Shown here: positions 13,433-56,215 of the stretch, piece by piece
Numbering within the stretch: position 1 is the stretch's first letter
Layout of the letters: the number at the start of each line of letters is the position of its first letter
Assembly: GCF_036711975.1 (NCBI RefSeq)
Contig: NW_027248940.1
Coordinates: forward strand, 1,798,001-1,862,000
Direction: 5' to 3'
Length of the DNA: 64,000 bases
Source of the DNA: Onthophagus taurus
Lineage: Eukaryota; Arthropoda; Insecta; Coleoptera; Scarabaeidae
Translations under genes and position numbers: made by a program
The notes under the pieces: model-generated
Database searches by the model: none
What the model saw: the letters and a program-made list of their open reading frames with translations, nothing else
Told to the model about the DNA's origin: nothing

Positions 13433-13732
13433 ATAATGGTTGTTATAATCCCGTTTATAATGCATATTGACTCTGAATTATATCCGGATCCCGAAAAATT
13501 CATTCACGAAAGGTTTTTCCCAGAAAATTTGAACCCAAATAGATATAGTTACGCACCTTTTAATCATGGTGTTCGGAATTGTATTGGAAAATACAATTCA
13601 GCTCTGGCAAAGTTGTTTCTTAATTATGAATTTGTGGACGTCCACCATAAACTTTGTTTATCCGTGGAGGTTACTTTGCAATCGAAAAGTGGGGTTCGAG
13701 CTAGAATACGCAAAAGAAACGCCATAAAATAG
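13433..13732 (+). pseudogene. P450 last-exon fragment (CYP-D)
   Basis: Matches the last exon of CYP-A/B from the segment before IPFIMHIDSELYP to the stop codon, including FIHERF (PERF motif with Ile-His before it) and the haem loop APFNHGVRNCIGK. The 5' part of the exon, with the ExxR helix, and all earlier exons are missing. After the haem loop about six codons are deleted (GKYNSALAK in place of a GKLYAM...ALAK stretch). The reading frame is otherwise open, but without the upstream exons it cannot give a P450. CYP-E on the other arm has the same deletion, so both derive from one ancestor. Confidence 0.9.
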
Positions 13733-13767
13733 AACAATTAAGTTATTATTATGTAATAGTAGTATTG

Positions 13768-13842
13768 TTTAAAACAAAAGAGTTGCGACCCTATGTTTAT
13801 ATAAAAAACTTGTGTTATTTGGCTGGTACTACATCTTAGTAA
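13768..13842. mobile_element. Remnant of TIR element, left part
   Basis: AAAACAAAAGAGTTGCGACC to the LINE insertion point matches an arm of the 4370-5563 family. Its continuation resumes at 17447-17482 and ends in GAACCACCCTGTATA. The LINE at 13843-17435 is inserted between, with an 11-bp target duplication CATCTTAGTAA at 13832-13842 and 17436-17446. Confidence 0.8.
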
Positions 13843-13941
13843 TAATTAAGTTTATTGCTACAAACTCAGCATTACATTCCACAAACAATTAAATTTTAAC
13901 AATACTACAATTACATATATCACATTACAATACAATACATT

Positions 13942-16207
13942 TTATTTCCTATCCCACCCTTCCCCATCTCCTCCCCGCATCTCCCTACGCTGCCTTGTCG
14001 CCACCACCTCCCTCATCCATTCTCTTCCCTCTGCCCTCTCCCCCAGCACCTGCTTCCAGCCGATCACCTCCTCTCTTAGCTCGTCACACTCCCTCAGTAG
14101 GTGCTCCAACGACTCCCACTCCCCCCCACATACCCTACAACCCCTCTCATCATCTCTCATCCAATACCTATTCGCTCTCTCCTCATTGCCGCATCTGAAT
14201 CTTGCCACCATCCTCTTCCCCTCCTCATCCCCCTCCACCGACAGGTACTTCGGCAATCCCTCCGTTATTATTTCCTCGTACTTAGGGTTGTACCTGCTCT
14301 CCCTTATCTGCCCCCTTCTTTCTTGCTTCTGTACATCTCTATCCCTGCTCTCCAGCTCTTTCCACATCTCAATCCCTTCCCTCCTTCTATCATCTACCGC
14401 TTTCACTGAGTACCCCACCCTTCTGAAATATTCCTCCCTCCCTCGTTGCCCGTAACCCCCTTTCCCTGCCTTAATCTCTTTCCAGCACTCCCCCAAAATT
14501 TTACATTGAGACCTCCCTTCAACCCTCTCCTCAAAACGTACCGCCCTTTTACCCGCCTCCACTCTTAACTTATCAACCTTCACCTCTTCTCTGACTATGT
14601 ACTCCGGCGTCTCTTTTGCCAACCCCAAAACCCATCTCCAATACCTATCCTGTACGCCTTCCAACAGCCCTTGTTCTTGGGCTTATTATCGCCGTCCTCC
14701 ATCCAATCGGAAACCCTTCCCCTTCCCAAACTTTGTTCAGCGCTTCCAACAACTTTCCCCTCACTTCTCCCGTTGCCTCCAGCCATGCCTCATTCTCGAC
14801 ACCGTCCTCCCCTGGAGCCTTCCCCCTCTTTAGTCCCCCCAACGCCGCCTCCATTTGTTCCCCGGCCATCTCCTCTCCTCTCCGTCCCCCTGTATCTACC
14901 TCCTCTACCCGCCTCTCCTCTTCCCCCTCCAGCAGACCCTTGAAGTAATCTCTCCACTCCGTCATTTGTATTTCACTGGTAATTTCCTGTCGTACCTTCC
15001 TTATTTTGTTTATATATTTCCAAACTTCACCCTCTTGTCTCACCCTTCTAATCTCTTCCGCCTCCCTCTCCCTCAATTCATTCTTTTTTCTTTTGCATAT
15101 CTCTTTATATCCCCTCAATGCTTCCCTATATTCTTCCACCCCCGCCAACCCTCTCCGCCACTGTCTCAACTTCCTTCTCGCCTCTCTCTTCGCCCCCATG
15201 CACTCACCATCCCACCATTCGTTCCTGCCTAGCTTTGCACTGCCCCCTCGTACGTACTCTTTCTTCGATATCGCTTCCCCCACCACCCGCGCCAGCTCGT
15301 CCAGCCCCCTAGACATCTCCACTCTCCGTCGCCACCCTTCCAACTTTTCCCTAAAGTGTTCTATCCCTCTTTCCGACCAGTCAGCCCTTATACTTTTTCT
15401 TTCCCGATTCAAACTCTCTCTCCCCCACGCGCCCCTTAGTACCAATTCCAGCGGTTGGTGATTCGATTCTACTGATTCTCCCACCCTGAAGCTTTCCACC
15501 CTATCCTACATCTCTTGGTCCACCACCACGTAATCAATTACCGACGCCCCCCTTGCCCCTGTATATGTGTACTCCCCTTCTTCTCCCTCCTCCTTATTGC
15601 CGTTCAGTATCTCCCATCCGTTCTTCTCCACCCACTGCAACAATTCTCTTCCTTCCCCATTCTGCACCTTATCCTTCGACCCTCGCCCCCTCTCCTCTCC
15701 CCATGTCCCCAGCCTTCCTCCCCCTTCCCCCACTCTCGCGTTGAAGTCTCCTCCCATTATTATATACCCCTCCTTCCCTTCTCCCACCATCCCTTCCCAT
15801 TGATTCTTTGTCTCCTTCATAAATCTGCTGTACACCGTGACTATTTGCACCTTTTCCCTTCCCAGCCTGATCTCCCTCTTCACCATCCCTTTTTTTCTCC
15901 ACTCCGCCTCCATCTCGCTTTCTTCCACCCTCCCCCTGGTGATTCCAGTTATAATTCCACCACTCGCCCTCCCCTTCTTGCTCCTCCTTTCTGCATGGAA
16001 GCAGTCCCATCTGCACCCCCCTGGCATTTTCCCCTTTATCCTCTCCCACCCCGCTTCGTCTACCCATGTCTCCGCCAAACAGATCACGTCAAAGCCCTTC
16101 AAATATTCCCAGAACTGCGTTCCTTTATTCGTTACACCTGCCACATTCCAAAACACCACTTTCGTCCGGCCCCTGTCTCCCACCAACTCGCTCGTATCCT
16201 TTGCCAT
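13942..16207 (-). pseudogene. LINE ORF2: endonuclease, linker and C-terminus, RT core deleted
   Basis: The frame from 16207 to 15506 starts MAKDTSELVGD and shows AP-endonuclease features (VVFWNVAGV, DVICLAETW, IIMGGDFNARVG). After a stop near 15503 the next frame (15499-14645) holds the linker (GKAPGEDGVENEAWLE) and reaches the first RT block (IGWRTAIIS). The sequence then jumps, near 14660-14690, directly to the C-terminal part (DRYWRWVLGLAKETPEYIV, and a knuckle with CRVCGGEWESLEHLLREC). By comparison with the copy at 24142-25494, roughly 0.9-1 kb containing YADD is missing. Confidence 0.85.
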
Positions 16208-16227
16208 TCCTCTTTCCCCCCCTTCAC

Positions 16228-17377
16228 CTAGTTTTTTGGTAAATTCCCCCGGACCTTTTCCATTACCACACCCTCTCCTTCATAATCAGTCATCCTGTCC
16301 CTTCTCTCCAACTCCCTCACCCTCTGTGGACACTCCTTGCTCCCAGCTTCATGATCCCCCTTCATCCCTACCTCCCTGCAGTTTGCACATGCCGGGTCCT
16401 GTCCCTTCTGTTTGCACTCTCTATATTCATGTCCCTCAGTCGCACAATGTCCGCACCTCTTTCCATTCTTGCATCTACCTTGCACATGCCCATATCTTTG
16501 GCATCTATAACACCTAGTCAGCCCCCTGTAATCCTCTACTCCGCATGATCTCAGCCCCAGATACACCCTCCCTCTCCTCAACAGCCCAACCCTCAGCCTC
16601 GCCGTCACTTCCATCACATAATTTACCAGATCCCTCCCCCTTTCGCCCCGTTTTGAACTTAATCTTCGCCCCTTTCAAAAACTCCTCATACCCCATCCCC
16701 AAGCTTTCCCCTTCAAAGTTCTTCTCCCACATCTGCCTCATTATCTTTTTCTCCTCCATTTCCCTTGGCACACCAAATACCACAATCTTCGGGTCTAGCT
16801 TCCTCGTCTCCCTTATAGACCACCCTGCCCTCTTCCCCATCTCCTCCTTTATCAGGTCTACGTCCCTCTTGGACTCCCCCTCTACCAACACCCTATTTCC
16901 CTTCGTTCCCCACACCGCATTTACCCTTAGATCCCCCTCTTTTCCCTTTAATCCTTCCATCACCTCCGCCTTCAAATCCCTTCCCTCACCGTCTTCCTTC
17001 CCTTCCCCTCTCTGATCTTCAATAACTATCACCCTTCCTTTAGCACGTCTTCTATCTTTCCCTACAACCCCCGCGTAGTTTCTGCCCAACAACCCCCCTT
17101 CCTCATATCTTTCCTTCCCGGTAATCAAGTTTTTCATCTCCTCCATCCTTTTCCCCATTTCCGTCTCCAACCGCCCCCACATTTCTCTCATTCTCTCCCC
17201 CTCTCCCATCCTGTCCCTCTCTCTCTCCTCCAGCTCTCTGTTCTTAATTTCCAAATTCAAAACCAAGTCCTCCATTCTCGCGAATGCCCCTAATACCTCT
17301 TGTATAACTCCTTTCTGGTTGTCCGTCAACCCCTCCATCAAGGTCTTCTCCAGCCTCCTCCTCTCCTCCCTCGCCAT
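16228..17377 (-). pseudogene. LINE ORF1, gag-like with three CCHC knuckles, frameshifted
   Basis: The frame from 17377 starts MAREERRRLEKTLMEG, is highly charged and probably coiled-coil, and runs to 16514. The second half is in another frame (16617-16228) and contains three zinc knuckles: CYRCQRYGHVQGRC, CGHCATEGHEYREC and CANCREVGMKGDHEAGSKEC. A frameshift near 16640 joins them. Such proteins coat LINE RNA. Confidence 0.85.
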
Positions 17378-17741
17378 CTCCCATCCTCCACAGTGTTCTC
17401 CTCCCTCGCCTTTCTCTTTCCGTCCCCCTTTTCTCCATCTTAGTAAAGTTTTCTGATTAAAAATTGAACCACCCTGTATAAATCAACATTTTTGAGGTTA
17501 TTTTAATAATCATCGATGCAATCAAATTTAGCATTATACAATATTTGATTATAATTGTTTTACAAATAATTTTGATTAATAAATTTTTTTGTAATAACAA
17601 AAATGTTATTTCCCTGTGAATAGTACGGTGCTCAATTAACTATGATTATAAAAATTTTTGTCTCAACGAGATTATTTTTAAATTGCACTTAATTATGGTC
17701 AATTGTAATTTTTTGTATTAAAGTTCACACCTGTCCGAACC

Positions 17742-17793
17742 TATATAAGTATCTATACCAAAATTACGCCTGATAACCACATTCAGATTTGCA
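17742..17793 (+). promoter_or_regulatory. Core promoter of CYP-B
   Basis: TATATAAG at 17742-17749, 52 bp before the ATG at 17794, in the same context as CYP-A (CTATATAAGTATCTATACCA). An initiator-like TCAG lies 41 bp downstream of the TATA box. The upstream flank (17483-17741) matches, inverted, the upstream flank of CYP-C. Confidence 0.7.
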
Positions 17794-20700
17794 ATGCTTT
17801 TTGTGGAGTTTGTAGCTGTGATAATTGTTGCGATTTTTTCGCTAACGTTATGGTGGTATTTTACATTTTATAAATACAAAAAGTACTTGAAAATGTTTCC
17901 TACCCCGACCCAATTGCCCCTTTTAGGGATCACCTACAAGATGCGAAATACTGTTGGTAAGTATCGAAAAGAAGAAAAATAATCGTTTTTTTAATTATTA
18001 ATTTTTAAGGTATTTATAACGCTCTACAATCATATATTAAAGAAATGGGGAGAAATATCTTTGCTATGATGGGACCATTCCCAACTCTCCTTACATCCGA
18101 TCCTAAAATATTTTCAGTCGTATTAGGATCCTCAAAACACATAAATAAACCCTTCGTGTTCAGTGCAGCATTCAGCAAGATGGCACCAAATTCACTCGCT
18201 ATAGTAAACGGTACCAAACATCATTTTAAAGCTTCGCAAATTAATTTTTCAATTCCAGGGGACGAATGGCGACGCCAAAGAAAACTTTTAAATCCATCTC
18301 TTGACTATAAAAATGTAATGGACAATAACAAAATTTTTAATAAGCATTCAGAAAATTTAATTAACAAGTTAAAAGTGGAAATAAACAATGAATCGGTTGA
18401 GGTTGGACACATTCTGGAGGATTTTACTTTTGAACAGTCTTTCGGTTCGTTTATTTATTTATTTTCACTTTTTATTGTTTCAAATGAAATTAAATGTGTT
18501 TTCACAGAAACGTTGTTTGGCGATACCGAATTTGAACTTGATAAGATGGTCATGGGAAAATGTATTAAGTTGTTGATGAATATAGGTGCGAAAAAAGTTG
18601 TTTCACCACTTAGCTACTTTCCTATAATACAAATATTCACGAAAATTTATTGGCTGGAAAGGAACACACTAAAAATTTTTCACAAAATCGTCAAGGAATT
18701 AATTGAAAAAAAGCGGAAAGAATTTAACAGCGGTGTAAAAATTGAAAGGAGACCAATATACATAGATATTTTATTTAGTACTAATTGCACGGATGAATTT
18801 ATTGAGGACCAAGTAACTGTTGGGATTGGAGTTGTAAGAATGTTTGTTATGAAATTTAAAATTCGTTATACAGTGCATTTCAAAAGTAACGGATAAATTC
18901 GATAAAATTATTATAAACAATTTATGAAAATATCGCTGAAAAGATTTAAATTTTTTGGTGTATATTTTAATTTTTTTCCGACATTTTTAAACGAGTTATG
19001 ACGTCATCGAAGTTTTTTTAAATGGAACACCCCATTTTTTATATCGGAACTTGAAAGAGAATTTTTTTCTGAATTATGTGCAATAAAGATTAATATCGGT
19101 TACATAAGAAAATTTTCGAGAAAATTAATTTAAATTTTCATTATTTCCCATATTCATTTGATATAAAAAATACTAGTAGCCGTGCGTAACCATGGCAAGC
19201 AAATGTTTTGATTAAAAATTTCCAAATGTCAAAATCCGATTTGAAACAGTGTATTGTGCGTTAATGAGATTATTTTGAATAGTATTGTGGAGTTTCTTGT
19301 GTTAATTGTTGTTATTTGTTGCTATTTGTTGCTATTCATCGCTGCTATTCATTCGTTGTTACTTTTTTGTTATTATTTGATCTTATTGTTTATCTATTAT
19401 TGGTTATTTTTTATTTATTGACTGCAAATTTAAGTACATCTAGAAGCACGCACAATATCAAGATCACCCCTACAAAGTACACTTGGTGCATGAGCTTTCC
19501 GATGACGATTTTGATCGACGCGTGCAATTCTGCGAAACAAATCCGGAATTTATTAAAAACATTCTATTCTCCGATGAAGCAACATTTTGTTTAAACGGCA
19601 CCGTCCATAAGCAAAGCTGCCGTTATTGGGCAGTAGAAAATCCCCATTGGAGGTGAATGTGTGGGCTGGAATAGTGGAGAATAGAATTATTGGACCGTAT
19701 TTCTTTAACGGAACAGTAGGCGGCAAAGTTTACTTGCAATTTTTGCAAATGCAGAAGATCCAAATTCACTACATACCAGAATTTGGCTACAGCAAGATGG
19801 CGCGCCTCCTCATTATGCTCTAGTTGTACGAGAATACCTCAACCAATCGGTGGATTGGCAGACGCGGACATATTGAATGGCCCTTTAGATTATTTTCTTT
19901 GGGGTTATTTAAAATCTAAAGTTTATTTTAATAAGCCTGATAATCCAGAAGATCTGAAGCAAAAAATTAGAGAAGAAATTCAATTAATCGGCCCGGATAT
20001 GATTCAAAACGTTCAAGAAGCATTTTCCCGATTAAGATATTGTCTTGCCGCTAACGGGCGTTAGATAATTCAAAACGTAGTTAAGATAATAATAATGAAC
20101 ATTTATAATTGTTCATTAGTTGAGCTCGCAACATACTGGATTCCTTTGGCTACCTATCCTTTCTTCTCCCCAAAATATCCCTCAACATCCCCCTTTTTTT
20201 CTCCCTTAAGCTTCACCATAGCCACCCCCCCCCCCTTCCTTTGAATTGTGTTTTTTAAATCGTATTTTCTACATATTATTTATTACTTTTTGACATTTGA
20301 AAATTTATTGATAACCGCAAACTTCAGGATATAAGTTTGACCTTGACAATCACGTTCCAGACAACCATTTTATCAAACGATTCATCGCATCCGCCCATAA
20401 TTACACTTTTATTTTTAATTTTCTTAAGTTTTTAACCACGAACAAATGTTTAATATTGATACCAGGCCTTTTTTCAAATCATGACGCGTTCCTGAAGATG
20501 ACTCTATGTTGAGTCGAAACCGGTAGAACATAAATGTAACAATTATCCATTAAAAAAAAGTGCAACTCTTTATTTTATTTTGATACGAATGATGGAAACA
20601 AATAATAATTACACCAATATTTATAATTGTAACAGGATCAAAACAATTGGTTGCCATGGTTACGCACTGCTACTGCTATTTTCTATATCAAATGAATGAG

Positions 20701-21660
20701 AAATAATAAAACTTTAAATTAATTTTTCTCGGAAATTTTCTTATGTAACCGATATTAATATTTATAGTACATAATTCAGAAAAAAAGTCTCTTTCAAATT
20801 CCGATATAAAAAATGGGGTGTTCCATTAAAAAAAAATTTCGATGACGTCATAACTCGTTTAAAAATGGCGGAAAAAATTTAAAATATACACCAAAAAATT
20901 TTAATCTATAGACCCGTTTCAGCGATCTTTTCATAAATTGTTCGTAATGATTTTATCGAATTTATCCGTTACTTTTGAAACGCACTGTATATAATTAATT
21001 TATATTTTAGGCCGTAGACACGACTACAGTAACATTATCGTTTATGCTTTACCACTTAGCAAAATTCCCCGAAATACAAGTATAATAAATATTATTAATT
21101 TAAATCAATCATTTTAAACTATTTAATCAAATTTATAGCAAAAAGCATTCGAGGAAGTTCACTCAATCCTGGGCGAAGACATCCACCAAACAATAACGAA
21201 CCAACAAATAATGCAGATGAAATATTTGGATTTAGTTATCAAAGAATCGATGAGATTAAATACGACTGCTCCTGTATTTTTACGAACCCTTGAAGAAGAT
21301 GTACCTTTCGAAAAAACCACGTTACCCAAAGGATTAATGGCTTTTATGATCCCGTTTATGATGCATGTTGACCCTGAATTATATCCGGATCCTGAAAAAT
21401 TTATTCCCGAACGGTTTCTCCCGGAAAATTTGAACCCAAATAGATATAGTTACGCACCTTTTAATCTTGGTGTTCGGAATTGTATTGGAAAATTGTACGC
21501 AATGGTTTCGATGAAAATTGCGTTAGCTAAAATGTTGCTTAATTACGAATTTGTGGACGTTCACCATAAACTTTGTTTATCCGTGGAGGTTACTTTGCAA
21601 TCAAAAACTGGGATTCGAGTTGGAATACGTAAAAGGAATTACGTGGAAAAGAACGAATAA
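17794..21660 (+). CDS. Cytochrome P450, CYP4-clan (CYP-B)
   Basis: Predicted ER-anchored monooxygenase, nearly identical to CYP-A. Exons: 17794-17956, 18010-18444, 18508-18833, 21011-21079, 21139-21660, together 505 codons with no stop. The same motifs are visible: the hydrophobic anchor, FPTPTQLPLLG, GDEWRRQRKLLNPSL, AVDTT of the I-helix, KESMRL, FIPERF and PFNLGVRNCIGK. Differences from CYP-A are scattered single residues (for example MLFVEF for MPFVEF, and KASQ for NASQ). Intron 2 is 63 nt, in frame and stop-free. Intron 3 (2.2 kb) holds a foldback element with a transposase remnant. AATAAA lies at 21721-21726. CYP-C mirrors it across the central Penelope element. Confidence 0.92.
19440..20064 (+). 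pseudogene. DDE transposase remnant (Tc1/mariner superfamily)
   Basis: Fragments in several frames read LFSDEATFCLNGTVHKQ (first catalytic Asp), NVWAGIVENRIIGPYFFNG (19626-19823), a second block (QQDGAPPHYA, second Asp), then DYFLWGYLKSKVYF and a C-terminal helix region (19783-20064). Frameshifts, a stop before NVWAG and loss of the N-terminal helix-turn-helix make it inactive. It belongs to the same broad insect family as the remnants at 58022-58853 and 40615-40830. Confidence 0.75.
20492..20521 (+). ncRNA. Hammerhead ribozyme-like core (Penelope scrap)
   Basis: CTGAAGA, stem II GACTC/GAGTC closing a TATGTT loop, then GAAAC: the conserved hammerhead arrangement CUGANGA-stemII-GAAAC. Penelope-like terminal repeats are known to carry such ribozymes. 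It lies inside the CYP-B intron 3 element. Self-cleavage is inferred, not shown. Confidence 0.6.
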
Positions 21661-22423
21661 TGAATTATATTTTTAAATTTTATTTTCTTTCTTAATGGTA
21701 TGTTTCGCTTTAAAACGTGTAATAAACTTAGTAACAATTTCTACATTGTAAATAATAGCCGTTATTACTACAACACACACGAATTAAAAATTTTATAAAG
21801 GAAATAAAAAAGGACAGTATTAAAACATCGAGGAAATTGATCAATTGTCAATTAAAATAATTATTTTGAATTTATTGACTAACAGATTTGTAGTGATAAA
21901 ACATACCTAGTTCACAGGGAAATTAAAATTGTTATTTTAAAAAAATTTATAGATAAAAATATAATTCTGATCAAATTATCTGAATGACTGACGTTCCCAA
22001 ACTTCAGGGGTGATTCTTTAGCAAAATTTAAGGGTACTGTCTTATATGAACTATGAGCGACTTCGACTCCCTTGGGGAGCTTCGCCCCTTCAAAAATTGG
22101 GAACAAGTTTAGCGCATAATAGAGCACGTTTCTAGCTTATTTGTACTTTCAATATTTCCTCCTAAGTTACGAAATATAACTTTTTTGTCTCTCTGATATA
22201 CTTGAAAAATTTAATAATTTCTAAAAAAAATTAATTAAGCAAACACTAACTGTTAAGCTGTAGGGTTGTTAATCGAAAGTTGGAATGAATTTTCAATGAA
22301 AAAATTCTTATAAAGCTTTGCAATTTTTTTCAGAAATATTTTTGACGTTCGAGAATGCAAAAGAATCTCGCTGTCGCGTATCAAACAACATTTTTTCGAA
22401 AACGACGTGTTCTAAAGTTTATA
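21661..22423. other. 3' flank of CYP-B
   Basis: Polyadenylation signal at 21721-21726, then AT-rich DNA homologous to the CYP-A 3' flank. Around 22020-22130 there is a short stretch not seen behind CYP-A. No gene found. Confidence 0.55.
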
Positions 22424-22740: not shown

Positions 22741-23645
22741 ATATTAAACAAATCTACCATTATAAATTTAATGAAATGATAAAAAGTTTATTGATTTATA
22801 GAGAAAAGTATGCTCTTTTAACTGGTACAACCCGTTTTTAACAATATCATTTCATTTTAAAGATATTAATTCTTAAATGTGATGAAAAATAGTAGTAACT
22901 TTTACGTTATTTTGGATAAATTTAAAAATCTCTAAAAAATCGAATTCTTAAGAGTTTGTTCTCAAAGTTTATTGATTTATAAAGAAAAGTATGCTCTTTT
23001 AAGTAGTGCAACCCGTTTTTGAAAACATCATTTAATTTTAAAGATATTAATTCTTAAACATGATGAAAAATGTTAGTAATTTTTGCGTTATTTTGGATAA
23101 CTTTAAAAATCTCTAAAAAATCGAATTCTTAAGAGTTTGTTCTCAAAGTTTATTGATTTATAAAGAAAAGTATGCTCTTTTAAGTAGTGCAACCCGTTTT
23201 TGAAAACATCATTTAATTTTAAAGATATTAATTCTTAAACATGATGAAAAATGTTAGTAATTTTTGCGTTATTTTGGATAACTTTAAAACTCTCTAAAAA
23301 ATCGAATTCTTAAGAGTTTGTTTTCAAAGTTTGTTGATTTATAAAGAAAAGCATGTTCTTTTAGGTGGTGCAACCCGTTTTTGAAAACATCATTTAATTT
23401 TAAAGATATTAATTCTTAAACATGATGAAAAATGTTAGTAATTTTAGCGTTATTTTGGATAACTTTAAAACTCTCTAAAAAATCGAATTCTTAAGAGTTT
23501 GTTTTCAAAGTTTATTGATTTATAAAGAAAAGTATGCTCTTTTAAGTAGTGCAACCCGTTTTTGAAAACATCATTTAATTTTAAAGATATTAATTCTTAA
23601 ACATGATGAAAAATGTTAGTAACTTTTCCGTTATTTTGGATAAAT
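22741..23645. repeat. Tandem satellite, about 183-bp units, behind CYP-B
   Basis: Nearly five units of the same satellite as 11181-12345, spaced about 183 bp (TTTATAAAGAAAAG at 22793 and then every ~183 bp). The units nearest PLE1 carry private variants (AGCATGTTCTTTTAGGTGG, and CTTTTCCGTTATTTTGG) that reappear inverted at 38735-38850 on the other side of PLE1. Confidence 0.9.
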
Positions 23646-23651
23646 TTAAAA

Positions 23652-23955
23652 ATTTGGTAAAATCCATGTTGCAAGATATAATCGAAATAAAATTCAATAA
23701 AACAAAAAACTTCTTTCTTGCTCTTTATTATAATATCCTCGGTACCAGTTTCGGCTTTATTAATTAGCCATCATCAGCCGAATCTACATATTTTGAAAAT
23801 CACATTAAAATATTTTTATAAATAAAATTAATAACAGTTAATCTTACGGTCAAATATTCTTGCACTTATCGAAATTTGAAATCATGATCACATTAGTTGG
23901 GTAAATTTGTTAAAAAAAAAAGTCACTTTCGGCAAGGTAAAATACATAAAATAAG
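23652..23955 (-). repeat. PLE1 inverted terminal repeat (left)
   Basis: Reverse complement of the 3' terminal repeat split across 34270-34325 and 38467-38722. It contains the empty target site of the right P element (GTAAATTT near 23901) and a minus-strand hammerhead-like core (CTGATGATGGCTAATTAATA...GAAAC) at about 23745-23777. Confidence 0.85.
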
Positions 23956-24019
23956 ATATTAAAACATATTGTCAATCAAAATTGACAATATGATATTGAT
24001 TATTACATTTTTAACAATA

Positions 24020-26426: not shown

Positions 26427-26435
26427 ACATTTTTA

Positions 26436-27214: not shown

Positions 27215-27906
27215 ATACAGGCTGTCCCGTTAAGCGTACGGAGCGGCAGTATCTCTAGAACGGGAAGACCTAGAGGTTTGGGAAAAAAATCCTTATAAGC
27301 AAAGTGACCAAGAGAAATAGCTGGAAATTATTTTGAAGTGCGTAATTCGACCGCTAGGGGGCGTAACTGCCATTGAGAAACATAAAGTTCCCGCTATCTC
27401 ACAAACTTAGACGATGAGCTATAACTTTGACAACATCATTTAATAGCTTGGATAATACCGCATCGCTTTTGTTTTGCGATATTTCTCATATCTGTCATAA
27501 TAAGGGAGGGGGAGGCCAATGCGTTTTCAAATGTTTACATTTTAATATCTTCTAGACCATTCAACCGATTTGAATATTTTCGGTGTTGTTTGAAAAAGCA
27601 TTTTATGCTCTTTTTAAAGATATTTTCAGTAAGACCATCTGCTTTAAAACAAATGAGCTAGAGGACGTTATCAGCAGCGATTACATATTTTTGTGATTTT
27701 TGAAGAAAAGTTAAATGGAACGATACCATTTACTTCACAGACCCATAGTCACCTTAAAATTTGCTAAATTTTAGTGAAAACCGCATCTCGATATCGCCAC
27801 CTGTTCTCGAGTTATAGAAGAAAATGTTAAAAACTCGAGTGCCATCAATCGGATCCAGTTACCTCATCGACAAAAACAAATCACATAACCATGGTAACTG
27901 TAAACA

Positions 27907-28200: not shown

Positions 28201-28280
28201 TGATAACAGACTGAACTATTACCATTGAATAAAATCGAAAATTTTTGTTACAACTGGTTTATTTTTAAGTTTAAGTTCAA

Positions 28281-45600: not shown

Positions 45601-47661
45601 ACTTACAATAGAAGAGAAAAAAATAATCGAAAACAGGAAAAAGAACATTCAAGAAAATTTCAAATCTCAGCTTGGACTATTAGTTGACATCCCTAAAGCC
45701 AATTTTGGCAATACGAATGATGGAAATACGAGCAGAAGATTTTTTGAAAACTATGAAATAGCCGCATCTATTACGGGAATCGACAAAAATTTAATTTACC
45801 GCTTAAAAATCATTCTCGATACTTTATGTAGCGGATATAATATTAATATTAAAAGATTTCAAGATTATGCTCAGGAAACGGCAAAACTATATGTAAAATT
45901 ATATAACTTTTATCCAATGTCCCCTACCTTGCATAAGGTGCTCCGACATGGAGCTGAGGTTATAAAGGAAGTCATTCTCCCTATTGGTCAACTTTCTGAA
46001 GAAGCTGCCGAAGCTAGAAACAAGCATATAAGAGCTTATAGATTAAATTATTCACGAAAATTCTCACGTGAGGCTTGTAACATGGACGTGCTAAATAGGC
46101 TTCTTTTAACATCTGATCCTGTGCTAACAGGCATGAGAGGACTCCCAAAGAAAAGTAAAAAGCCTTTATTAAAGGACGTTTTAGATTTGTTAGAAGAGGG
46201 TAATGTTTCAAACCCAAAAATTTGTGATAATAACAATAACATTTTTGAATAAATAGTTCTAAAGTAAAATTATTAGTGTTTTATTATTTACTGTTATTTT
46301 ATTACTGATAAATTTAATCAATAAACACATCTATAGATGTTTTAGGTAAAAAAATATTTTTGGCCAGGTTTTCAGCTCAAATACCCCACAGTGTGCCGGC
46401 TATAGTAAAACGGACTAATATTGTTCTGTAATATTAAATAAAAATCAATTTAAAAATTTAATTTGAATACCCTGTATCTCCAAAACAAAGCGTTTGTCGA
46501 CCTATGTTTATATGAAGTTTTTGTGTTAATTTTAAAAGATCTATTGACTGTTAAAGTCCTGCTACAAAAACCTGAAACACCCTGTATAACGAATTTCAAA
46601 TTTCATAACAAACATTCTTACAGCTCCAATCCCCACAGTTATTTGGTCCTCAATAAATGCATCCGTAAAATTAGTACTCATTAAAATATCTATGTATATT
46701 GGTCTCCTTTCAATTTTTACACCGCTGTTAAATTCTTTCCGCGTTTTTTCAATAAATTTCTTTAAGCTTTTGTGAACAATTTTTAGTAAGTTCCTTTCCT
46801 GCCAATAAATTTTCGTAAATATTTGTGTTATAGAAAAGTAGCTAAGTGGTGAAATACATTTTTTCGCAGCAATATTCATCAATGAGTTAATACATTTTCC
46901 TATAACCTTCTTATCAAATTCAAATTCGGTATCGCCCAACAACGTTTCTGTGAAAACACATTTAATTTTATTTGAAACAATAAAAAGTGAAAATAAATAA
47001 ATAAACGAACCGACAGACTGTTCCAAAGTAAAATCCTCTAGAATGTGTCGAACCTCAACCGATTCATTGTTTATTTCCTCTTTTAACTTGTTAATTAAAT
47101 TTTCTGAATGCTTATTAAAAATTTTGTTGTTGTCCATTACATTTTTATAGTCAAGAGATGGATTTAAAAGTTTTCTTTGGCGTCGCCATTCGTCCCCTGG
47201 AATTGAAAAATTAATTTGCGAAGCATTAAAATAAAGTTTGCTACCGTTTACTACAATGAGTGAATTTGGTGCCATCATGTTGAATGCTACACTGAACACG
47301 AAGGGTTTGTTTATGCGTTTTGAGGATCCTAATACGGCTGAAAATATTTTAGGATCGGATGTAATGAGAGTTGGGAATGGTCCCATCATGGCAAAAATAT
47401 TTTTTCCCATTTCTTTAATATATGATTGTAGAGCGTTATAAATACCTTAAAAATTAATAATTAAAAAAACGATTATTTTCCTTCTATTCGATACTTACCG
47501 ACAGTATTTCGCGCCTTGTAGGTGATCCCTAAAAGGGGCAACTGGGTCGGGGTAGGAAACATTTTCAAGTACTTTTTGTATTTATAAAATATAAAATACC
47601 ACCATAAGGTTAGCGAAAAAATCGCAGTAATTATCGCAGCTACAAACCCCATAAAAAGCAT
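39663..47661 (-). CDS. Cytochrome P450, CYP4-clan (CYP-C)
   Basis: Minus-strand counterpart of CYP-B. Exons: 47661-47499, 47445-47011, 46947-46622, 40312-40244, 40184-39663, again exactly 505 codons with intact borders. The motifs are the N-terminal anchor with FPTPTQLPLLG, GDEWRRQRKLLNPSL, AVDTT, KESMRL, FIPERF and PFNLGVRNCIGK. It is more diverged than A and B are from each other (for example TVPAFLRT for TAPVFLRT, and HHQLCLSVELTLRSK near the end). The polyadenylation signal is at 39602-39597. Intron 3 (6.3 kb) holds a TIR element with a Transib inside. The likely start is the ATG at 47661, not the upstream in-frame ATG at 47733, because the paralogues start there. Confidence 0.9.
42341..44194 (-). 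mobile_element. Tc1/IS630-superfamily element nested in the Transib
   Basis: 1854 bp bounded by perfect 30-bp inverted repeats (TAATCTGTTTTTTATTTAAA...) with TA on both sides (42339-42340 and 44195-44196). It contains a broken DDE transposase on the minus strand. The right end lies 5 bp before the Transib transposase ATG at 44200. Confidence 0.88.
42625..44019 (-). pseudogene. Tc1/IS630-like DDE transposase, frameshifted
   Basis: The first exon starts MLRKGGTGCQLSKREKNSII (44019), a helix-turn-helix region, and after a small intron (donor GTATTT near 43893) the gene continues from about 43740. The catalytic parts are visible: VFLDETWIYENG (first Asp), VVMDNAPYYSKQ (second Asp), and PPYNCQYNPIELCWAFLK (Glu of NPIE). 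At least four frameshifts separate them (near 43500, 43310, 43065 and 43050, two of them in A-rich runs). The C-terminus ends in an acidic-serine tail (EDSDSSSNSDF). It cannot encode an active transposase. Confidence 0.85.
44200..46252 (+). CDS. Transib transposase, RAG1 core-like
   Basis: Exon 1 44200-44428, intron 44429-44537 (GT-AG), exon 2 44538-46252; 648 codons, 647 aa, no stop. Predicted DDE transposase that cuts at the heptamer-like element ends through hairpin intermediates, as its relative RAG1 does at antigen-receptor loci. Visible features: a basic segment GRPQKEFLESSERSKRRK after the intron; candidate catalytic Asp in KWGCDGSQ (about 258), Asp in NTNDGN (about 471) and Glu in SEEAAEARNK (about 568). 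A zinc-binding pair CYIC (about 375 and 378) with HKVLRH (about 542 and 547) has the same CxxC...HxxxxH spacing as RAG1. The ATG at 44200 is chosen because the frame upstream enters the nested element. No RING or PHD domain and no RAG2-like partner is seen. Confidence 0.9.
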
Positions 47662-48312: not shown

Positions 48313-51263
48313 CTATGACAAGGCTGCACATTGCTCCAAAAATTTATCTTTATATAGTGTTTTTTTGAAATTAATGATATTTAGTTTTTTGATCATAGGC
48401 GGTCGCGTTCCATATGACTTATACATGTGACACGTAAAAGACCTGTGAAACAAAGAGGTTCTGTATTTTGGTGGATATATGCCATATTTTAATCTCGTTT
48501 GTAGATCATTGTTAGCCCTTTTAAAAGTAATCCTCTCATACAAGTATGTCGGTATATGTGTTGTGACGATTTTACGAAACAAAACCAAACTGTGCAACTC
48601 CCGGCGGATATCCATTCTGTGCCACCCAACACAAGTGAGACAGCACAAGAGAATCACATAACTGTTTTTTTAATTTTATCGAAAGAACGGATCGGTGAGG
48701 ATTAAGTTTTCTTAAACATGAATACGACCTTCTCATGTAAATATTAATTTGAGCTTTAAATCTGAAGGTGTTATCTATTGTTAAACCAATAGATACAACA
48801 TTGATTCTTGAACCATTTATATGAATATCAAGATCCAAGTTCAGCCCTGTGACCCCTCTCCCTCTCCCGAAACATACACACGCAGACTTATCAGGATTAA
48901 TCTTTAGTTTAAGAAACGTCGCAATATTAAATATAGTAGACAGGTCCTCATTAATACGTATCTGTGCTAGTTTCTTATCATTTTCATGAAAGGACAGATA
49001 ACACATATTGTACCCGACTACTAAACCGCGAAGTGTACAAAGAGAACAAGAGAGGCCCCAACACCGAACCATTCAAAACTCTAATTGTGTGAGACAAATC
49101 ATCACCGATCCTTACCCTTTGAGACCTATCGCAGAGGTAGTCACCCAACAAAGATACCGCCTCTGAACTCAACCCCAAATCATACAGAATCTCACCCAAA
49201 ACTGCATGATTAACGGTATCAAACGCTTTAGAAAAATCCAGGAAGACTACAGCAGTGTACAATAAATTGTCCGTGTTCGTAAGAATATCATCAGTTAGAC
49301 GCAACATTGCAGTTGTACAACTATAGCCACTTCGAAAGCCAGATTGCTCCTGAGGCAGCAAGCAATTACTCTCCACGTAACTCACCAACTGCTGCTTCAT
49401 AATTTTTTCAAGCACCTTAGATTACGTTGGAAGAATACTTATTGGTCTCAGATCTTTCAGTTGCTTGGGATCATCAACCTTTGCCAAAGGAATAACTATC
49501 CCTTGCTTCCAAAGCACAGGAAATTTACTCTCCGAAAGACAGCAATTGAGAAAATGAGTCAGATACGGCAAAATCAACGGACAACAGAGACGTATCATTC
49601 CTATGGAAATACCATCACACCCAACTGAAGCGGATGTGATAGAAGCCAGAATAGACCGCACCTCTACCTTATTTACATTTTTAAATACAAATTGATTTTG
49701 ACATGCATTATGCTTATAAAAATCCAAATTAACAGATGGCAAACTATCCACAAGCTCGTTTACACTATCTACAAAATAACTGTTAATACGGTCAGCATTC
49801 TGCATATGCGACGGTAAGGACGACGCCCTGCTATCCGTCATAATTCCAAGTCCTCTAACTTCATTCCATATCTGTTTAGAACTTCCTTGTTCTGTCAAAT
49901 AAGCAACATAAGCACGTTTTTCGTTCCTCACAGCTGCAGTAGTGTAGTTACGCAGAGATTTGTAATAATCCCAATCACCTCGACTGCGAGTCCTCCTGAA
50001 TTTCATCTTTGCGCGATCCCTCAAATTCATCAAGAGCTTTATATTATCTGTCAACCAAGGACTGCGTGGTTTAGTAAATCTGTAATTCCTCAGTGGAGCA
50101 TGAGCGTCAAACAAGGTATTTATGTTATCATTTAAAAACTCAAGTTTCCGATCAATATCATCCATATAAAACATAAAATTAAATGGTATGGACTGCAGAT
50201 CAAGCAAAAATCGTTCCTGACTAATACGACTCAACAAGCGCATGTTTCTATAAAGTGGAACACTCTCAGGAACATTCACATTCATCATACAGTACACCAT
50301 GTCATGATCGGAAACGTCACAGCCAATAACTCCACTACTCAGAATTAAAGACTCGTCAAAAGTAATAATTAGGTCTATTAAAGATATGCAGTTCCTCGCC
50401 GTCCTTGTAGGTGCATCAATGAGCTGAGTTCCACCCAATGAATCCATCAGAGACAAAAATTCAGTGGTATCACTTTTTTCGAAATTTAATAAGTTAATAT
50501 TAAAATCGCCACAACAAACAATTTTATCCGACATACTTAAATAATTTGTAATAGAATTTTCAAATTCATTGAGAAAATTTACGTAATTAAAGTTAGGCGG
50601 TTTATACACGCAACCCAAGGACAGTAGAATCTAACAGGACTGCTACATCCATTGTATTTTTGTAGTCCACTACGGATTGGTTGCCCGCACTCTACGTCAC
50701 ACTATTTGCCACGCCTGGTAACTGTCTGTGTTTTTAGAGGTTATATGATAGACATTAATACGTCTAAAAACATAAAACTTCAAAAATAATATGAATACGT
50801 CTAGGATATAACCTCTAAAAATACACAGTAAACGCAAAGACCATAACAACAGCTGGGCGTGGAAAATGGTGTGACGTAATTTGCGGGCAGGTTGTCACAA
50901 CAATGGATGTACCAGTCCTGTTAAATTCTACTGTCCTTGCACGCAACCAACAAAAAGATCTACACCACCGCAACAAACTTTTATCCATAGTTGCTCGATA
51001 CTAAACGACGTATCCATAACTACATATTGAAGGTCACTCCTAATATAAAAACAGACTCCCCCACCCCTAGTTTCACGATCCCCACGGACACAATGAAAAC
51101 CATTTATATTAATTACAGAATCTGGAATCTCATTATGTAACCAAGTTTCCGACAGAGCCAAGATATCTATATTATTGATCAAAATTAGATCTTTCACAAC
51201 AGCAACTTTCGGAAGCAACGATCTCACATTCAAATGCACAACCTTGACAAGCTTGTTTATCAT
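48313..51263 (-). pseudogene. LINE2 ORF2: endonuclease and reverse transcriptase, broken
   Basis: Endonuclease from 51263 (HLNVRSLLPK, NIDILALSETWLHN, GVCFYIRSDL) is interrupted by a MITE at 50616-50939 and resumes at 50618 (YKPPNFNYVNF, IVCCGDFNINLL, CDVSDHDMVYC). The linker and first RT block run to a single TAA at 49422 (LRPISILPT*SKVLEKI). The frame continues 49415-48984 (EQSGFRSGYSC, FLDFSKAFDTVNHAVL, GSVLGPLLFSLYT). At about 49000-49030 the expected YADD segment is missing, apparently deleted. The thumb and C-terminus follow at 49072-48313. Several lesions make it inactive. Confidence 0.85.
50616..50939. mobile_element. MITE in LINE2 with 9-bp target duplication
   Basis: 324 bp with inverted ends CAAGGACAGTAGAATCTAAC and GTTAAATTCTACTGTCCTTG. 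The flanking direct repeat CACGCAACC lies at 50607-50615 and 50940-50948. An inner pair of inverted segments (AGAGGTTATAT and ATATAACCTCT) folds the loop. A 9-bp duplication fits Mutator-like elements better than Tc1/mariner; no coding capacity. Confidence 0.8.
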
Positions 51264-51562
51264 TTTAACAAATATAATTGCAATTACAGCATCATATCAA
51301 ATCAATCAGTATTATAATTTATAACCTAAGTAAGTGTGAGATAAACAAAAAGTAAAAAATAAATTAAGTAAATCGCAAGAGAAATAGAAAAAAGCAAAAA
51401 GAAAGAAAAAAACAATTAAATGAAAATTTTGCGTTATTAAATTAACGTTATTTAAATTAACTTTTTCTTATATAAATCAAGAAATACCCAAGCAAGCGCC
51501 GCTTATCTTAAATCTCAACGATTCGATTTCAATCCGCGAATGTAAACGTAATATACTTAGCC

Positions 51563-52309
51563 TCATTTATTTTGACTTCTCTGCTGTCTGGTCACCCTCT
51601 TACTCGATGGCGCAACGTCCTTGATGGCTAACTGAGCACCCTTAAGTGACTCCAGCTCGTCTCCGTGAAGTATAACACGATTTTTCCCATCTGGACACTT
51701 TATAATTATCCGGCCGTCTGAAGTCCATACATTAGCCTTTCCGAAAGTAATACCTGCCTCCTTGAAAACATCCAGGCGTCGCTTTGATAGGGACTCGGTA
51801 ATGAGAATGTTACTACCTTTAAAATTTTTTTTGTGTCTCCATACCAACGCTCTATCCCGGTAAGAAAGAAACTTAATGATGATAGGTCGGCTCCTTGTCG
51901 ATCCCTTGTTAAAACAACCCAGCCTATGACATCTATCGATGATGGACATCGTTGGAATCCAATCAGGAATCCTCAATTTCGAGAAAGTCTGCAGCACACT
52001 AACTTCTAAATCGTGATCAGATTCGTCGGTTTTCTCCGTGATCCCATGAAGCAACAAACAATTTCTTCGACTGTAGTTTTCCAAATTATCCACCAAAACT
52101 TGTGAAATTCTCTCCAAATTGGCATATATCTCCGTTTGAGAAGCACTGAAATCCCTTTTAATGGAATCAATAGTTACAACAGCTTCCGGAATAGCTCCGT
52201 CTTTGTAGGAAAACGTTTCACCTACTGCTGTTAGTCTAGAATTAAATTCTAACATCGATTTCCGGAACTCTTCCGCCAAAGAGGAAAATTCAACATTTTT
52301 CCCGGCCAT
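51563..52309 (-). CDS. LINE2 ORF1 protein, coiled-coil and RRM-like
   Basis: Open frame of 248 aa starting MAGKNVEFSSLAEEF. The N-terminal half is helical and suited to trimer formation (KRDFSASQTEIYANLERISQ). ENYSRRNCLLLHGITEK follows, then SIIDRCHRLG, RPIIIKFLSYRDRALVW, ILITESLSKRRLDVFK and a basic C-terminus (SSKRVTRQQRSQNK). This matches the ORF1 of LINE1 at 8431-8998. Predicted to bind LINE RNA. It is unbroken although ORF2 of the same copy is dead. Confidence 0.8.
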   Translation of the reverse strand: MAGKNVEFSSLAEEFRKSMLEFNSRLTAVGETFSYKDGAIPEAVVTIDSIKRDFSASQTEIYANLERISQVLVDNLENYSRRNCLLLHGITEKTDESDHDLEVSVLQTFSKLRIPDWIPTMSIIDRCHRLGCFNKGSTRSRPIIIKFLSYRDRALVWRHKKNFKGSNILITESLSKRRLDVFKEAGITFGKANVWTSDGRIIIKCPDGKNRVILHGDELESLKGAQLAIKDVAPSSKRVTRQQRSQNK

Positions 52310-52577
52310 TTAAGATTGTTGGTTTAAACGCCATAAACCAGTTGTAAGAAAAAACACAGACAACACGTGTTATCCCGGAACTCAGAGTTAAAGAGCAACT
52401 TCGACAAAAACTTGACTATTAGGTACCAACACCAATCACTGATTAACAGTCAAATTTACGTTAAAATCGGACGACTAATTCCCCGTGAAAACTACTATTT
52501 TGCGGAATGAAAAGAACACGTGCGCTCAACTCGACATCTCGATATGTTTGTGATAAAGTTCGATGATTATTAAAATA

Positions 52578-55360
52578 GAGTCGGATCAACAACCGTTGGA
52601 GGTGGAGGTAAAGGGGGTGGACGGCAGAAGGCGAGCGGAAATGGGGAGCACGTTCATCAGAACAGACTGGTCGGAAGAAGGGGTAGCATTCTACAGGGGA
52701 AACCTAGACACTTGGCAACAGAAGATGCAAGAGATCAATGGTTTGGAAGAACTTATCCAGGTAGTGCGGGAGGCAACACTGAAAAGGGATTGTATGATGG
52801 CGAGTGCAAGAAGACGAAGAGGGAGGCGAGAAGGAGGTTGAGACAGTGGAGACGGGGGAAGATAAGGGTGGAGGCCAGCAGAGGATACAGAGAGTTATGC
52901 AGTAGAAAGAAAACAGAACTGAGGGAGAAGGAAGCGGCAGAGATTAGAGGGATAACAAGGGAAGGGGAGGTCTGGAGGTATCTGAAAAAGAGAAAGAAGG
53001 GTAGGGAGAGGATAACCAGCGAAATACACATGACAGAATGGAAGAGTTACTTTATGGGATTATTGGGAGGGGTTGAAACGAGACTAACGGGTTTGGGAGG
53101 CTGTGAGGGAGATGGGGGAGAGAAGATAGCAGAAGAGGAGATGGAAACAATGCTTAGGGGATTGAAGAAGGGAAAGGCGCTAGGGGGAGATGGCATCCAG
53201 AACGAGGCATGGTTGGAAGCATCAAGGGTGGTGAGAGTGAAGTTGTTGGAGGGGATGAATAGCGTATGGAGAGGGGGGGGATTCCGGAGGGATGGAAAGT
53301 GGGGGTAATTTGCCGGATGGGCAGGCAGGCTTTCGAAAGGGAAGGGGAGCAATCGACAACGTGTACGTGTTGAAGCATCTGGCCGGAGCCTACAATATTC
53401 CAGGCCATACTGTAATGGTGGGGAGACTCGAATCTCAGGGTATGATTCTTCATCTCGGGGTACCGCTCAGTCGTGTTTTAACTGTCGAGCTGAGAAGTGG
53501 TCGGAGCGTCCTCACAGTTTTAAACGTTAGATATTTTCAGGGATTTTTCTGTAGGTTTTCTGCGTCTTATTTAATTTTTCATTTTTGTTTTTCATCAGAT
53601 TTTCCTCTTTTTATAAAGAAGATTGTGTTTTTAGTTAATATTTTCTCAGAGTTAAGCTTAGACTAGAAAATAAAGTTACATCGGTTCTGTGCAATATATT
53701 TTTAAATAATTATACAAAAATCATAAATAATAATAATTTTGCAGAAAATAGTAGGAAAGTAAGAAAATTTAATGCCACATAAAAACAAATATTTTTTTCT
53801 ATCCACGTAGAACGATGAACGTCTTCTTAAAACGGCTACACTGCTATAGTCCGTCTTTGTCATCGTAGTTTATACCCCGAACCCCCACCATCACAGTACG
53901 GCCTGGAATATCGTAGGCTCCGATCTGGCAGATAGAGAGCTGGATAAGAAGGGAGGGAAATTGTACGCCCTGTTTATAGATTTGAAGGCGGCTTTTGATA
54001 AGGTGGATAGAGGAAAGTTGTGAGAGGAGATGGGGAGGAGGGGGATCACGGAACACCTAATTGCGAGAGTGAAGGAAATATACATGGAGACTATGGCTAG
54101 GATAAAAGTGGGAGATAAGCTGAGCGACGTGTTTTGGACGACGAAGGGACTGAGGCAGGGATGTCCGCTGAGCCCAAATCTGTTTGCACTGTATACGGCG
54201 GACCTGGAGGATAGATTGGGGAAGGGGCAAATGGGAGGGTTGGTGGTGGGAGGTAGAAAGGTGCATATGTTAGCATACGTGGATGACATCGTGGTCATGG
54301 CGAGAGAAGCGGCGGAGATGAAAGATATGATAAAGACATTGGAAAGATATTTTAGGAGGAAGGGGCTGGAAGTGAATGTGGGGAAGACAAGGATGATGAA
54401 GTTTTGTAAGGGTGGGAGAAAAAGAACAGAAAACTGGAGATGGGAGGGAAAAGAGATCGAGGAGGTTAGGGAGTATACTTACTTGGGGTATGTGTTCAGG
54501 GAGGGGTCGCATGTGATAGCTATGGCAAAAAAGGCGAATAAGGTGATGGGACAAGTATGGGGTTGGGGGAAGAGAGTTTTTGGAAGGAATGCGGCAGCGA
54601 GGAAGATTATGTTTGAAGGCCTGGTTAGCAGTGTGATGATGTATGGAGCAGAGGTATGGGGATGGAGAGAGCAGGCAATTCTGGAGGACGTGCAAGCTAG
54701 ATACTGGAGATGGGTGCTTGGGGTGGCGAGAGAAACACCGGGGTATATAGTGAGGGAAGAGGTAAAGGTGGATAAAGTCAGAGTGGAGGCGGCAGGAGAG
54801 CTGTGAAATATGAAGAAAGAATAGAAGGGAGGCCAAACTGCGGGATCTTGGGGGAGTGTTGGAGGGAAATTAAAGAGGGAAAGATCAGATATGGGAAAGG
54901 AGACAGAAACAACTATTATAGACGAGCGGGCTACTCGGTAACGGAGATAAATAGTAGACGAAGGGTGGGTAGGGAGATGTGGAGGGAGTTGAGAGATAGG
55001 GACCGAGATGTACAGAGACAGGAAAGAAGGACACAAATAAAAGAGGGGAGGTATAACGAAAGGTACAGGGACATAATTACGGAGCGGCTGCCTAGATACT
55101 TGTTATTGGAAGCAGATGAGGAAGGGCAGAAGTTGGTGGCTAGCTTCCGTTGTGGAAACGAGGAGAGAGCTAACAGATACTGGATGGCCGATGAGGAGAG
55201 GTGGTGTAGGCTATGCAGGGAGGAATGGGAAACGTTGGAACATATGTTGAATGGGTGCAGTGAGTTGAGGGAGGAGGACTTGGACCGAGGGCAGATCTTA
55301 GGAGAGGGGAAACGATGGATGAGAATGGTTGTGGGGGTGAGGAGACAAAGGGATGGATGA
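52578..55360 (+). pseudogene. LINE3 linker, reverse transcriptase and C-terminus, broken
   Basis: Pieces in order: ESDQQPLEVEVKGVDG and a basic linker (52563-53308), DGQAGFRKGRGAIDNVYVLK (53292-53380), interruption by a TIR element, KLYALFIDLKAAFDKVDRGKL with a stop near 54020, the main RT frame 54030-54806 (GLRQGCPLSPNLFALY), and the C-terminal part 54803-55360 with a knuckle (CRLCREEWETLEHMLNGC). The catalytic motif reads YVDD where the copy at 25.2 kb reads YADD. Inactive. Confidence 0.85.
53384..53922. mobile_element. Small TIR element nested in LINE3
   Basis: The ends CGGAGCCTACAATATTCCAG and, inverted, CGGAGCCTACGATATTCCAG extend as inverted repeats for about 40 bp. A 7-bp direct repeat ATCTGGC flanks it (53377-53383 and 53923-53929). 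It interrupts the RT frame. No coding capacity; the superfamily is uncertain. Confidence 0.75.
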
Positions 55361-55531
55361 GGGGAGGATTGGGCCGAGGGTATGGAAATGGAGGAAGAGG
55401 GTAGAGGGTGAAAATAATATACTAATGACATAGATTAGGATGTATTAAGGGGAAAATTGTAATTATCAAAAACAATATAATGCTTATTATTATTAATTAT
55501 TAAAATAACCTCAAAAATGTTGATTTATACA

Positions 55532-55690
55532 GGTTGGTTCAGTTTTTAACCAGAAAACTTTACTAGTATGTAGTACCTGCCAAATAACACAAGTTTTTTA
55601 TATAAACATAAGGTCGCAACTCTTTTGTTTTCGAGCTATGAGCGATCAAAATTGAACAAAAAATTTACATTTTACATTTTATTTTTTATT
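55532..55690. mobile_element. Remnant of TIR element (mirror of 13768-17482)
   Basis: TATACAGGTTGGTTCAGTTT... to the TTTACATTTTACATTTTATT region matches the 4370-5563 family. It is next to AAATAACCTCAAAAATGTTG, exactly as in reverse at 17447-17510 on the left arm, so it was present before the inverted duplication. Confidence 0.8.
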
Positions 55691-56039
55691 TTGTTAAAGA
55701 TAGAGAAACGGGTTTTGTATTAAATTAAAGATTAAAGTGTACTCTTTAAAAAGATATATCATACTATGTTACATTATGGTTGATTCCGCTCAAAAGATTC
55801 TTTTTCGAAAATGACTTAATTTTGATGAAATAGTTTCGAAGAAAAAAACGTCAACTTTAAAAATTCCGTGTGAGATGAGTTTTAAAGTTGGAAACACGAT
55901 TTTTATACCCAATTAAAGCTTACAATGTCCGATTGCTTCCCGATCAAAACAATTTTTTTCTAAATATTGTAATTTTTCAACGTAGTTTATAAACAATAAT
56001 ACTACTATTACATAATAATAACTTAATTGTTCTTTTTTA
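55691..56039. other. Spacer between TIR remnant and CYP-E
   Basis: AT-rich DNA without a recognised gene. Its first part, next to CYP-E (55985-56039), matches the 3' flank of CYP-D in reverse; the rest is deleted on the CYP-D side. Confidence 0.5.
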
Positions 56040-56215
56040 TGTCGTTTCTTTTGCGTATTCTAACTCGAACCTACTTTTCGATTGCAAAGTAACCTCCTCG
56101 GATAAACAAAGTTTATGGTGGACGTTCACAAATTCATAATTAAGAAACAACTTTGCCAGAGCTGAATTGTATTTTCCAATACAATTCCGAACACCATAAT
56201 TGAAAGGTGCGTAAC
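56040..56215 (-). pseudogene. P450 last-exon fragment (CYP-E)
   Basis: The minus strand matches CYP-D from the codons before RNCIGKYNSALAK to the C-terminus, including the same internal deletion after the haem-binding CIGK. It has additional one-base losses near 56090 and 56070 that shift the frame. Upstream it is cut off at 56215 by LINE4. It is the mirror partner of CYP-D in the inverted duplication. Confidence 0.88.

Follow-up and report, generated by a model that had tools for sequence, protein, structure and literature searches.

How did a cluster of cytochrome P450 genes come to be laid out as a mirror image of itself, and did the transposable element at its centre cause this? The question is raised by a stretch of the Onthophagus taurus genome (C15:1798001-1862000; 64,000 nucleotides, hereafter the window), in which two P450 genes, B and C, lie tail-to-tail on either side of PLE1, a putative Penelope-like element (PLE). 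The window DNA was compared with itself by self-BLAST, and genome-wide searches were made over the 290.8-Mb assembly of 33 contigs; negative coordinates and those above 64,000 lie outside the window. The inverted duplication with its tail-to-tail P450 genes is genuine. Judging from the junctions and divergences described below, the PLE was very probably in place when the duplication formed, and a causal role of PLE1 in the palindrome is likely.

The mirrored arms

Self-BLAST yielded 53 inverted matches, nine of which form a single chain in strict mirror order. The chain belongs to a mirror that spans 13434-56224, with a P450 remnant (D) and gene B on the left, and gene C and a second remnant (E) on the right. 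The other 44 matches, which represent transposons, satellite register shifts and P450 paralogues, were excluded from it. The chance of nine blocks falling in one given order is 3e-6, a value that is only indicative, because neighbouring blocks are not independent. In the control, the window compared with its own complement read backwards, there were 0 matches at 1e-10. The nine pairs (left / right) are:

13537-13769 / 56224-55995
13771-13842 / 55631-55560: remnant of a terminal inverted repeat (TIR) element, + strand in the left arm, 94.4% identity
17441-17510 / 55565-55496 and 17534-17712 / 47957-47781: upstream flank of gene B (17441-17712, + strand), in two pairs
17706-18882 / 47736-46573
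20976-21767 / 40347-39556
21827-21912 / 39556-39471
23298-23908 / 39074-38467
23900-23956 / 34326-34271

The order that the first-pass annotation had read from the letters (D, TIR remnant, flank of B, B and satellite, reversed on the right) is recovered in this chain. The principal features of the mirror are:

13434-13760, + strand: P450 remnant D (last exon), outer end of the left arm, 11/221 differences to E
17893-21660, + strand: P450 gene B, six coding exons, identified as P0001 (455 amino acids, NCBI 'cytochrome P450 4d10-like')
22783-23652, + strand: 181-bp satellite array of the left arm, ~4.8 units
23653-38722: PLE1, at the mirror centre
38724-39074, - strand: 181-bp satellite array of the right arm, ~2 units
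39663-47562, - strand: P450 gene C, counterpart of B in the mirror, assigned to P0002 (455 amino acids, NCBI 'probable cytochrome P450 313a4')
55985-56224, - strand: P450 remnant E, mirror of D, with the 18-nt deletion of D

Common descent of the arms is favoured by two changes that both sides have in common. The first is the 18-nt internal deletion of D and E, already noticed in the annotation and absent from the P450 copies A, B, C, X and F (A, X and F are described below). The second is a CC change in the last satellite unit by the centre. This unit matches on both sides, and CC is absent from the 8 other units listed. The mirrored variants of the last unit had been called private, which holds for the CC change among these units and fails for AAATTTAAAAAT, as the latter is also found in a B-side unit at 22905. 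The arms measure ~10-18 kb each, insertions included. The outer end of the event can be placed only approximately, because remnant E is cut off at 56224.

The central element and its age

The 3' end of PLE1 is repeated in inverted orientation over 304 bp, as its annotation with inverted terminal repeats had implied. The element is composed of the following parts:

23653-23956, - strand: left inverted copy of the 3' end, 304 bp, 13/303 differences to the right copy
23953-23957: inner head-to-head junction, with an overlap of 1 bp (exact) or 4 bp (imperfect)
26428-27217, + strand: body, reverse transcriptase part, continuing at 29587-29960, 34110-34325 and 38475-38722
34271-34325 plus 38475-38722, + strand: right copy of the 3' end, split by the P element E2

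Set against the copy on C2 (L002/L039), PLE1 reads as an inverted 304-bp 3' end, a short-overlap joint, and then a 5'-truncated copy that runs to the 3' end. A retroelement thus lies at the joint, and the host mirror starts at its ends, just as had been claimed. On either side the alignment runs from satellite into PLE1 without a gap. The satellite/PLE junction, 31 bases long, has exactly two copies in the genome, on opposite strands, with no further genome match at ≤3 mismatches. The inner junction sequence occurs once in the genome, and therefore the PLE1 dimer gives no sign of being mobile as a unit. The repeat that is mirrored down to 23956/34271 is most probably the Penelope-like element itself.

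We take PLE1 to be Penelope-like from a motif (YVDDIF), and the label is further suggested by its structure, which resembles that of pseudo-long terminal repeats (pLTRs). The RVT_1 domain is below the Pfam cut-off both in the window (26126-26620, E 0.0023) and in the sister stretch (L039 4048-4485, E 0.00014). The sister stretch is matched by 87/95 candidate proteins, many with RVT_1 or PF26215, and there is no Penelope among the names shown. By eye, the sister copy has a GIY-YIG-like stretch at L039 4520-4906, for which Pfam gives 0 families. PLE1 has no significant PDB match, and Rfam has no match at gathering scores within the window.

To compare ages, the divergence between the two PLE1 ends may be set against that between the host arms. 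The PLE1 ends differ at 13/303 sites (4.3%), and the adjacent satellite at 8/253. In the host arms, D and E with their flanks differ at 19/372 sites and the noncoding parts of B and C at 51/827, together 70/1199 (5.8%). There is no difference between the PLE1 ends and the host arms (Fisher p 0.33), and the insertion of PLE1 and the palindrome appear to be of similar age. Therefore, given that the shared junction is unique and that PLE ends and host arms have diverged to a similar degree, the presence of the PLE at the time of the duplication is very probable, as stated above.

Substitutions in the PLE1 ends were polarised with 7 other PLE copies as outgroups (row L053 of the alignment is the same copy as L049 and was excluded before counting). 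Twelve could be polarised, of which 4 are private to the left end, 7 are private to the right end, and 1 is shared and hence precedes the left/right split; 2 sites are ambiguous, and 1 right-private deletion was left uncounted. The Poisson 95% upper bound on the single shared change is 5.6, compared with an average of 5.5 private ones on each side. From these counts, the split of the PLE1 ends was probably close to the insertion in time. Similar divergence and 1/12 shared changes fit a single event, with a bound on the lag that is wide.

A second, outer pair of inverted P450 copies flanks the window:

-28449 to -18527 (C15:1769551-1779473): P450 gene X, close to NCBI P0004
76390-68191 (C15:1866191-1874390): P450 copy F, with a stop in the last exon

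X and F are mutually inverted, with satellite arrays in the corresponding intron of each. Their synonymous divergence (dS) is 0.17-0.23, against 0.06-0.10 for B and C (p 1.4e-4, from pooled rounded counts), and their noncoding differences are 55/649, against 70/1199 for the young arms (p 0.033). A single palindrome including X/F is ruled out, X/F being older than B/C by both measures. After masking of tandem arrays, intervals X-D and E-F have no inverted match to each other at 1e-8. Beyond X/F there are three short inverted matches (62-94 bp), which were excluded from the mirror because one right-hand stretch pairs with two left-hand places in two of them. The ~43 kb given in the first-pass annotation suits the young duplication as its extent, because X/F is an older inverted pair, which lies outside. 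Of the 15 kb that separates the arms, the greater part consists of later insertions (a long interspersed nuclear element (LINE), a TIR element and two P elements).

Formation of the palindrome

Other copies of the element bear on how its inverted ends arise. A search with the PLE1 3' end gave at least 45 matches in the genome among the best 40 of 236 candidates. When matches of ≥80% identity over >100 bases are counted (which excludes the shorter ones at C2:12.17M and C1:5.284M), there are at least nine PLE1-family loci including the window, among them three that are head-to-head (the window, C1:315k and C6:29.67M) and a direct pair (C2:27.116M). Three further inverted pairs, known as matches alone, are found at 74-82% identity (C11:27.15M, C15:2.338M and C1:5.28M). 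Terminal repeats of pLTR type, direct or inverted and often head-to-head with 5' truncation, are expected of PLEs, and these loci agree with that. From C1:315k and C6:29.67M, both head-to-head, it is clear that the family makes inverted ends by itself. By eye, another Penelope-like family, distinct from PLE1, is present at 61880-63339 on the minus strand, where Pfam gives no support; sequence related to it adjoins the PLE copies on C1 and C6.

It is tentatively proposed, with confidence slightly below even, that a fold-back formed part of PLE1's own integration and mirrored the P450 gene, the downstream 181-bp satellite and the neighbouring remnant. That PLE integration itself built the palindrome, through a fold-back of complementary DNA (cDNA) or a sister-chromatid bridge, with DNA synthesis continuing past the 3' end of the element into a detoxification gene, so that a single step gave an inverted gene duplication that could be inherited, is possible and is put forward with somewhat more doubt than trust. 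The PLE would have been copied into an AT-rich site of the satellite. Its 5'-truncated cDNA would then have been joined head-to-head, at the 1-4 bp overlap, to a second strand that retraced the PLE 3' end and went on into satellite and gene. This could have happened in two ways: by a snap-back of the cDNA on itself, after which repair synthesis continued along the host arm, or by head-to-head cDNAs bridging two sister chromatids that had both been cut at this site. Of the arms, the one on the right (C and E), to which the long PLE copy is joined, would have served as the template for the left one (B and D). We infer the coupling to integration, the direction of copying, the enzymes and the healing of the outer end alike.

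A fold-back coupled to integration is favoured because it would explain together the base-exact duplicated junction, the head-to-head joint of short overlap and the similar ages. Head-to-head inverted pLTRs are reported to be common in PLEs, and self-priming has been proposed for them (PMC3846280). A PLE enzyme is described as cleaving and extending both strands, with a preference for AT-rich DNA (PMC11167929), and LINE-1 has been interpreted as bridging sister chromatids head-to-head in tumours (PMC7058536).

Several observations weigh against such coupling. The X/F pair shows that there was an earlier route to inverted copies at this locus, and no PLE is seen there. The flanks of the head-to-head copies at C1:315k and C6:29.67M are not mirrored within 1.2-1.5 kb per side (part of these flanks is another PLE-like repeat), and because of these two loci inverted ends alone seem not to cause palindromes. 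Of the four left-private changes, two are neighbours and could have arisen together. Finally, a lag between insertion and split of up to about the age of the split would stay compatible with the counts.

A later break inside the PLE is the strongest rival. A single 5'-truncated PLE would have stood beside the satellite until an incidental break led to a fold-back or template switch inside it, the PLE not being causal. This is unlikely, though to be reckoned with, as the doubling of the satellite/PLE junction and the overlap of 1-4 bp are accounted for equally well, and the bounds on the lag are loose. In yeast, fold-back at breaks is also reported to give templated inverted duplications that are very short (PMC11724301). 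The break, however, must hit a short element, most simply soon after its insertion in view of the 1/12 shared changes.

The first-pass annotation had suggested that the inverted repeats of PLE1 seeded a fold-back or template switch. Of this suggestion, the inverted duplication and the very probable presence of the PLE stand. The inverted repeats need not have existed beforehand as a seed; the inverted PLE end could equally be the product of the fold-back, or have been made in the same event. Spelled out, PLE1 would have inserted as a head-to-head dimer, and its inverted ends would later have seeded a fold-back copying one arm. A dimer can come first, as in the C1:315k and C6:29.67M copies without mirrored flanks, and widely spaced inverted repeats are reported to fold back in single-stranded DNA in yeast (PMC10164571). 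We nevertheless regard this course as quite improbable: the same satellite junction is present at both ends, so that the copy must have replaced one original flank, the inner junction is found nowhere else in the genome, and few PLE changes predate the split.

It is very improbable that the palindrome is older and that PLE1 arrived later, exactly at its centre. The flanks of PLE1 may be read as a 6-bp target duplication, AAATTT, in keeping with the AT-rich targets that the PLE enzyme is said to prefer (PMC11167929), and X/F is an older inverted pair at the locus. AAATTT is, however, self-complementary, so that the mirror alone yields an apparent duplication. Moreover, the insertion would have to fall within a few bases of the symmetry centre, a coincidence at the base level, and neither the satellite (8/253) nor the host arms exceed the PLE ends significantly in age, the host-arm value being nominally higher. 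An inverted joining of haplotypes or chimeric reads in the assembly is hardly credible, given that there is no N in 144 kb of sequence around the locus, that each P element has its own target-site duplication (TSD) with the PLE continuous across both, that the arms differ by ~6% and by several TSD-flanked insertions, and that the overlap at the inner junction is just 1-4 bp, unlike that of a repeat-driven misjoin.

Later insertions, P450 genes and known systems

The insertions within the mirror are:

13843-17435, - strand: LINE in the left arm, 11-bp TSD CATCTTAGTAA; the mirrored site 55560-55565 is without the LINE
24020-26425, - strand: LINE in PLE1, 16-bp TSD TACATTTTTAACAATA
27218-29586: TIR element in PLE1, with inverted repeats of ~650 bp and, as read from its flanks, TATA at either side
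29961-34101, - strand: P element E1, 35-bp TIRs, 8-bp TSD ATGTCGCG; empty site at C15:4.57M (L040)
34326-38466, + strand: P element E2, 8-bp TSD AAATTTAC; the site is empty in the left arm and at C2:26.47M (L039)
44528-46252, + strand: transposase open reading frame (ORF) in the large intron of C, 574 amino acids, matching PDB 6pqn (E 9.7e-115)
48572-55479: insertions of LINE type separating C from E in the right arm; the left arm has none of them at its mirrored site

E1 and E2 are 100% identical over 4141 bases, in opposite orientation and 224 bp apart. With their Tnp_P_element and TNP-like RNase H domains, TIRs and 8-bp TSDs, they have the hallmarks of P elements, and they are the sole full-length copies among the best 40 of 199 candidates, with internally deleted derivatives elsewhere. 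Their arrangement looks like a recent local transposition. As seeds of the palindrome the P elements are ruled out as late arrivals, because they are mutually identical, have separate TSDs, and empty sites exist. A second copy of the TIR element, ~95% identical to that at 27218-29586, lies at -27174 to -24944. The transposase ORF at 44528-46252 is presumably of the Transib type.

Several satellites occur at the locus (11191-12721, 22783-23653, 38724-39074, and arrays outside the window), with periods of ~172-193, 291 and 368-372 bp, in or beside P450 genes.

Gene B matches the O. taurus NCBI protein P0001 exon by exon and is identical to it, and gene C was assigned to P0002 by eye from its ORFs. 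The Pfam p450 domain is found in the exons of B and in gene A, and the heme-binding loop FNLGVRNCIG is present in the ORFs of A, B and C. The label CYP4-like is taken from what NCBI calls P0001 and P0004; its name for P0002 (C) is 313a4-like. In the 5' exons of B (17893-18833), 58/777 coding sites differ from C (nonsynonymous divergence, dN, 0.074; dS 0.097), which is as high as the noncoding divergence, hinting at relaxed or diversifying selection on B and C since the duplication. Gene A is a relative of B in direct orientation (noncoding differences 56/873; dS 0.017-0.073). Because the A/B dS is lower, the tandem copying of A and B may date from a similar or somewhat later period, or conversion may have acted.

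Several known systems resemble the locus in part. In the fold-back inversions attributed to LINE-1 in tumours (PMC7058536), as here, a retrotransposon lies at a head-to-head joint, and insertion and inversion are presented as one event; those cases are somatic and of megabase scale, whereas that of O. taurus is germline, old and interstitial, with ~10-18-kb arms and a Penelope-like element. The Penelope elements of Adineta vaga (PMC3846280) likewise have head-to-head inverted ends and are tied to the expansion of a host gene family; there the gene is described as lying between pLTRs and having moved with a TSD, while in O. taurus the element does not contain the genes, which are mirrored in place. 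Inverted repeats are also reported to nucleate inverted duplications in yeast, both by fold-back (PMC10164571) and by origin-dependent inverted-repeat amplification (ODIRA; PMC4689423), a likeness to the present locus. ODIRA in yeast is, however, described as predicting an inverted triplication (PMC4689423), and O. taurus has two inverted copies and one direct copy (A). No PLE-centred palindrome of P450 genes was found in the titles and abstract beginnings of the openly licensed papers searched, and among O. taurus P450 papers under open licence no title on this cluster was found.

The junctions at this locus are unique and short, so that they may be typed across Onthophagus populations and species. 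If the proposed coupling is true, the palindrome would be a germline counterpart, with a Penelope-like element and a datable joint, of the LINE-1 events described in tumours (PMC7058536). Retrotransposon fold-back of the tumour type could then also give rise to gene clusters during evolution, in this case one of tail-to-tail P450 genes.

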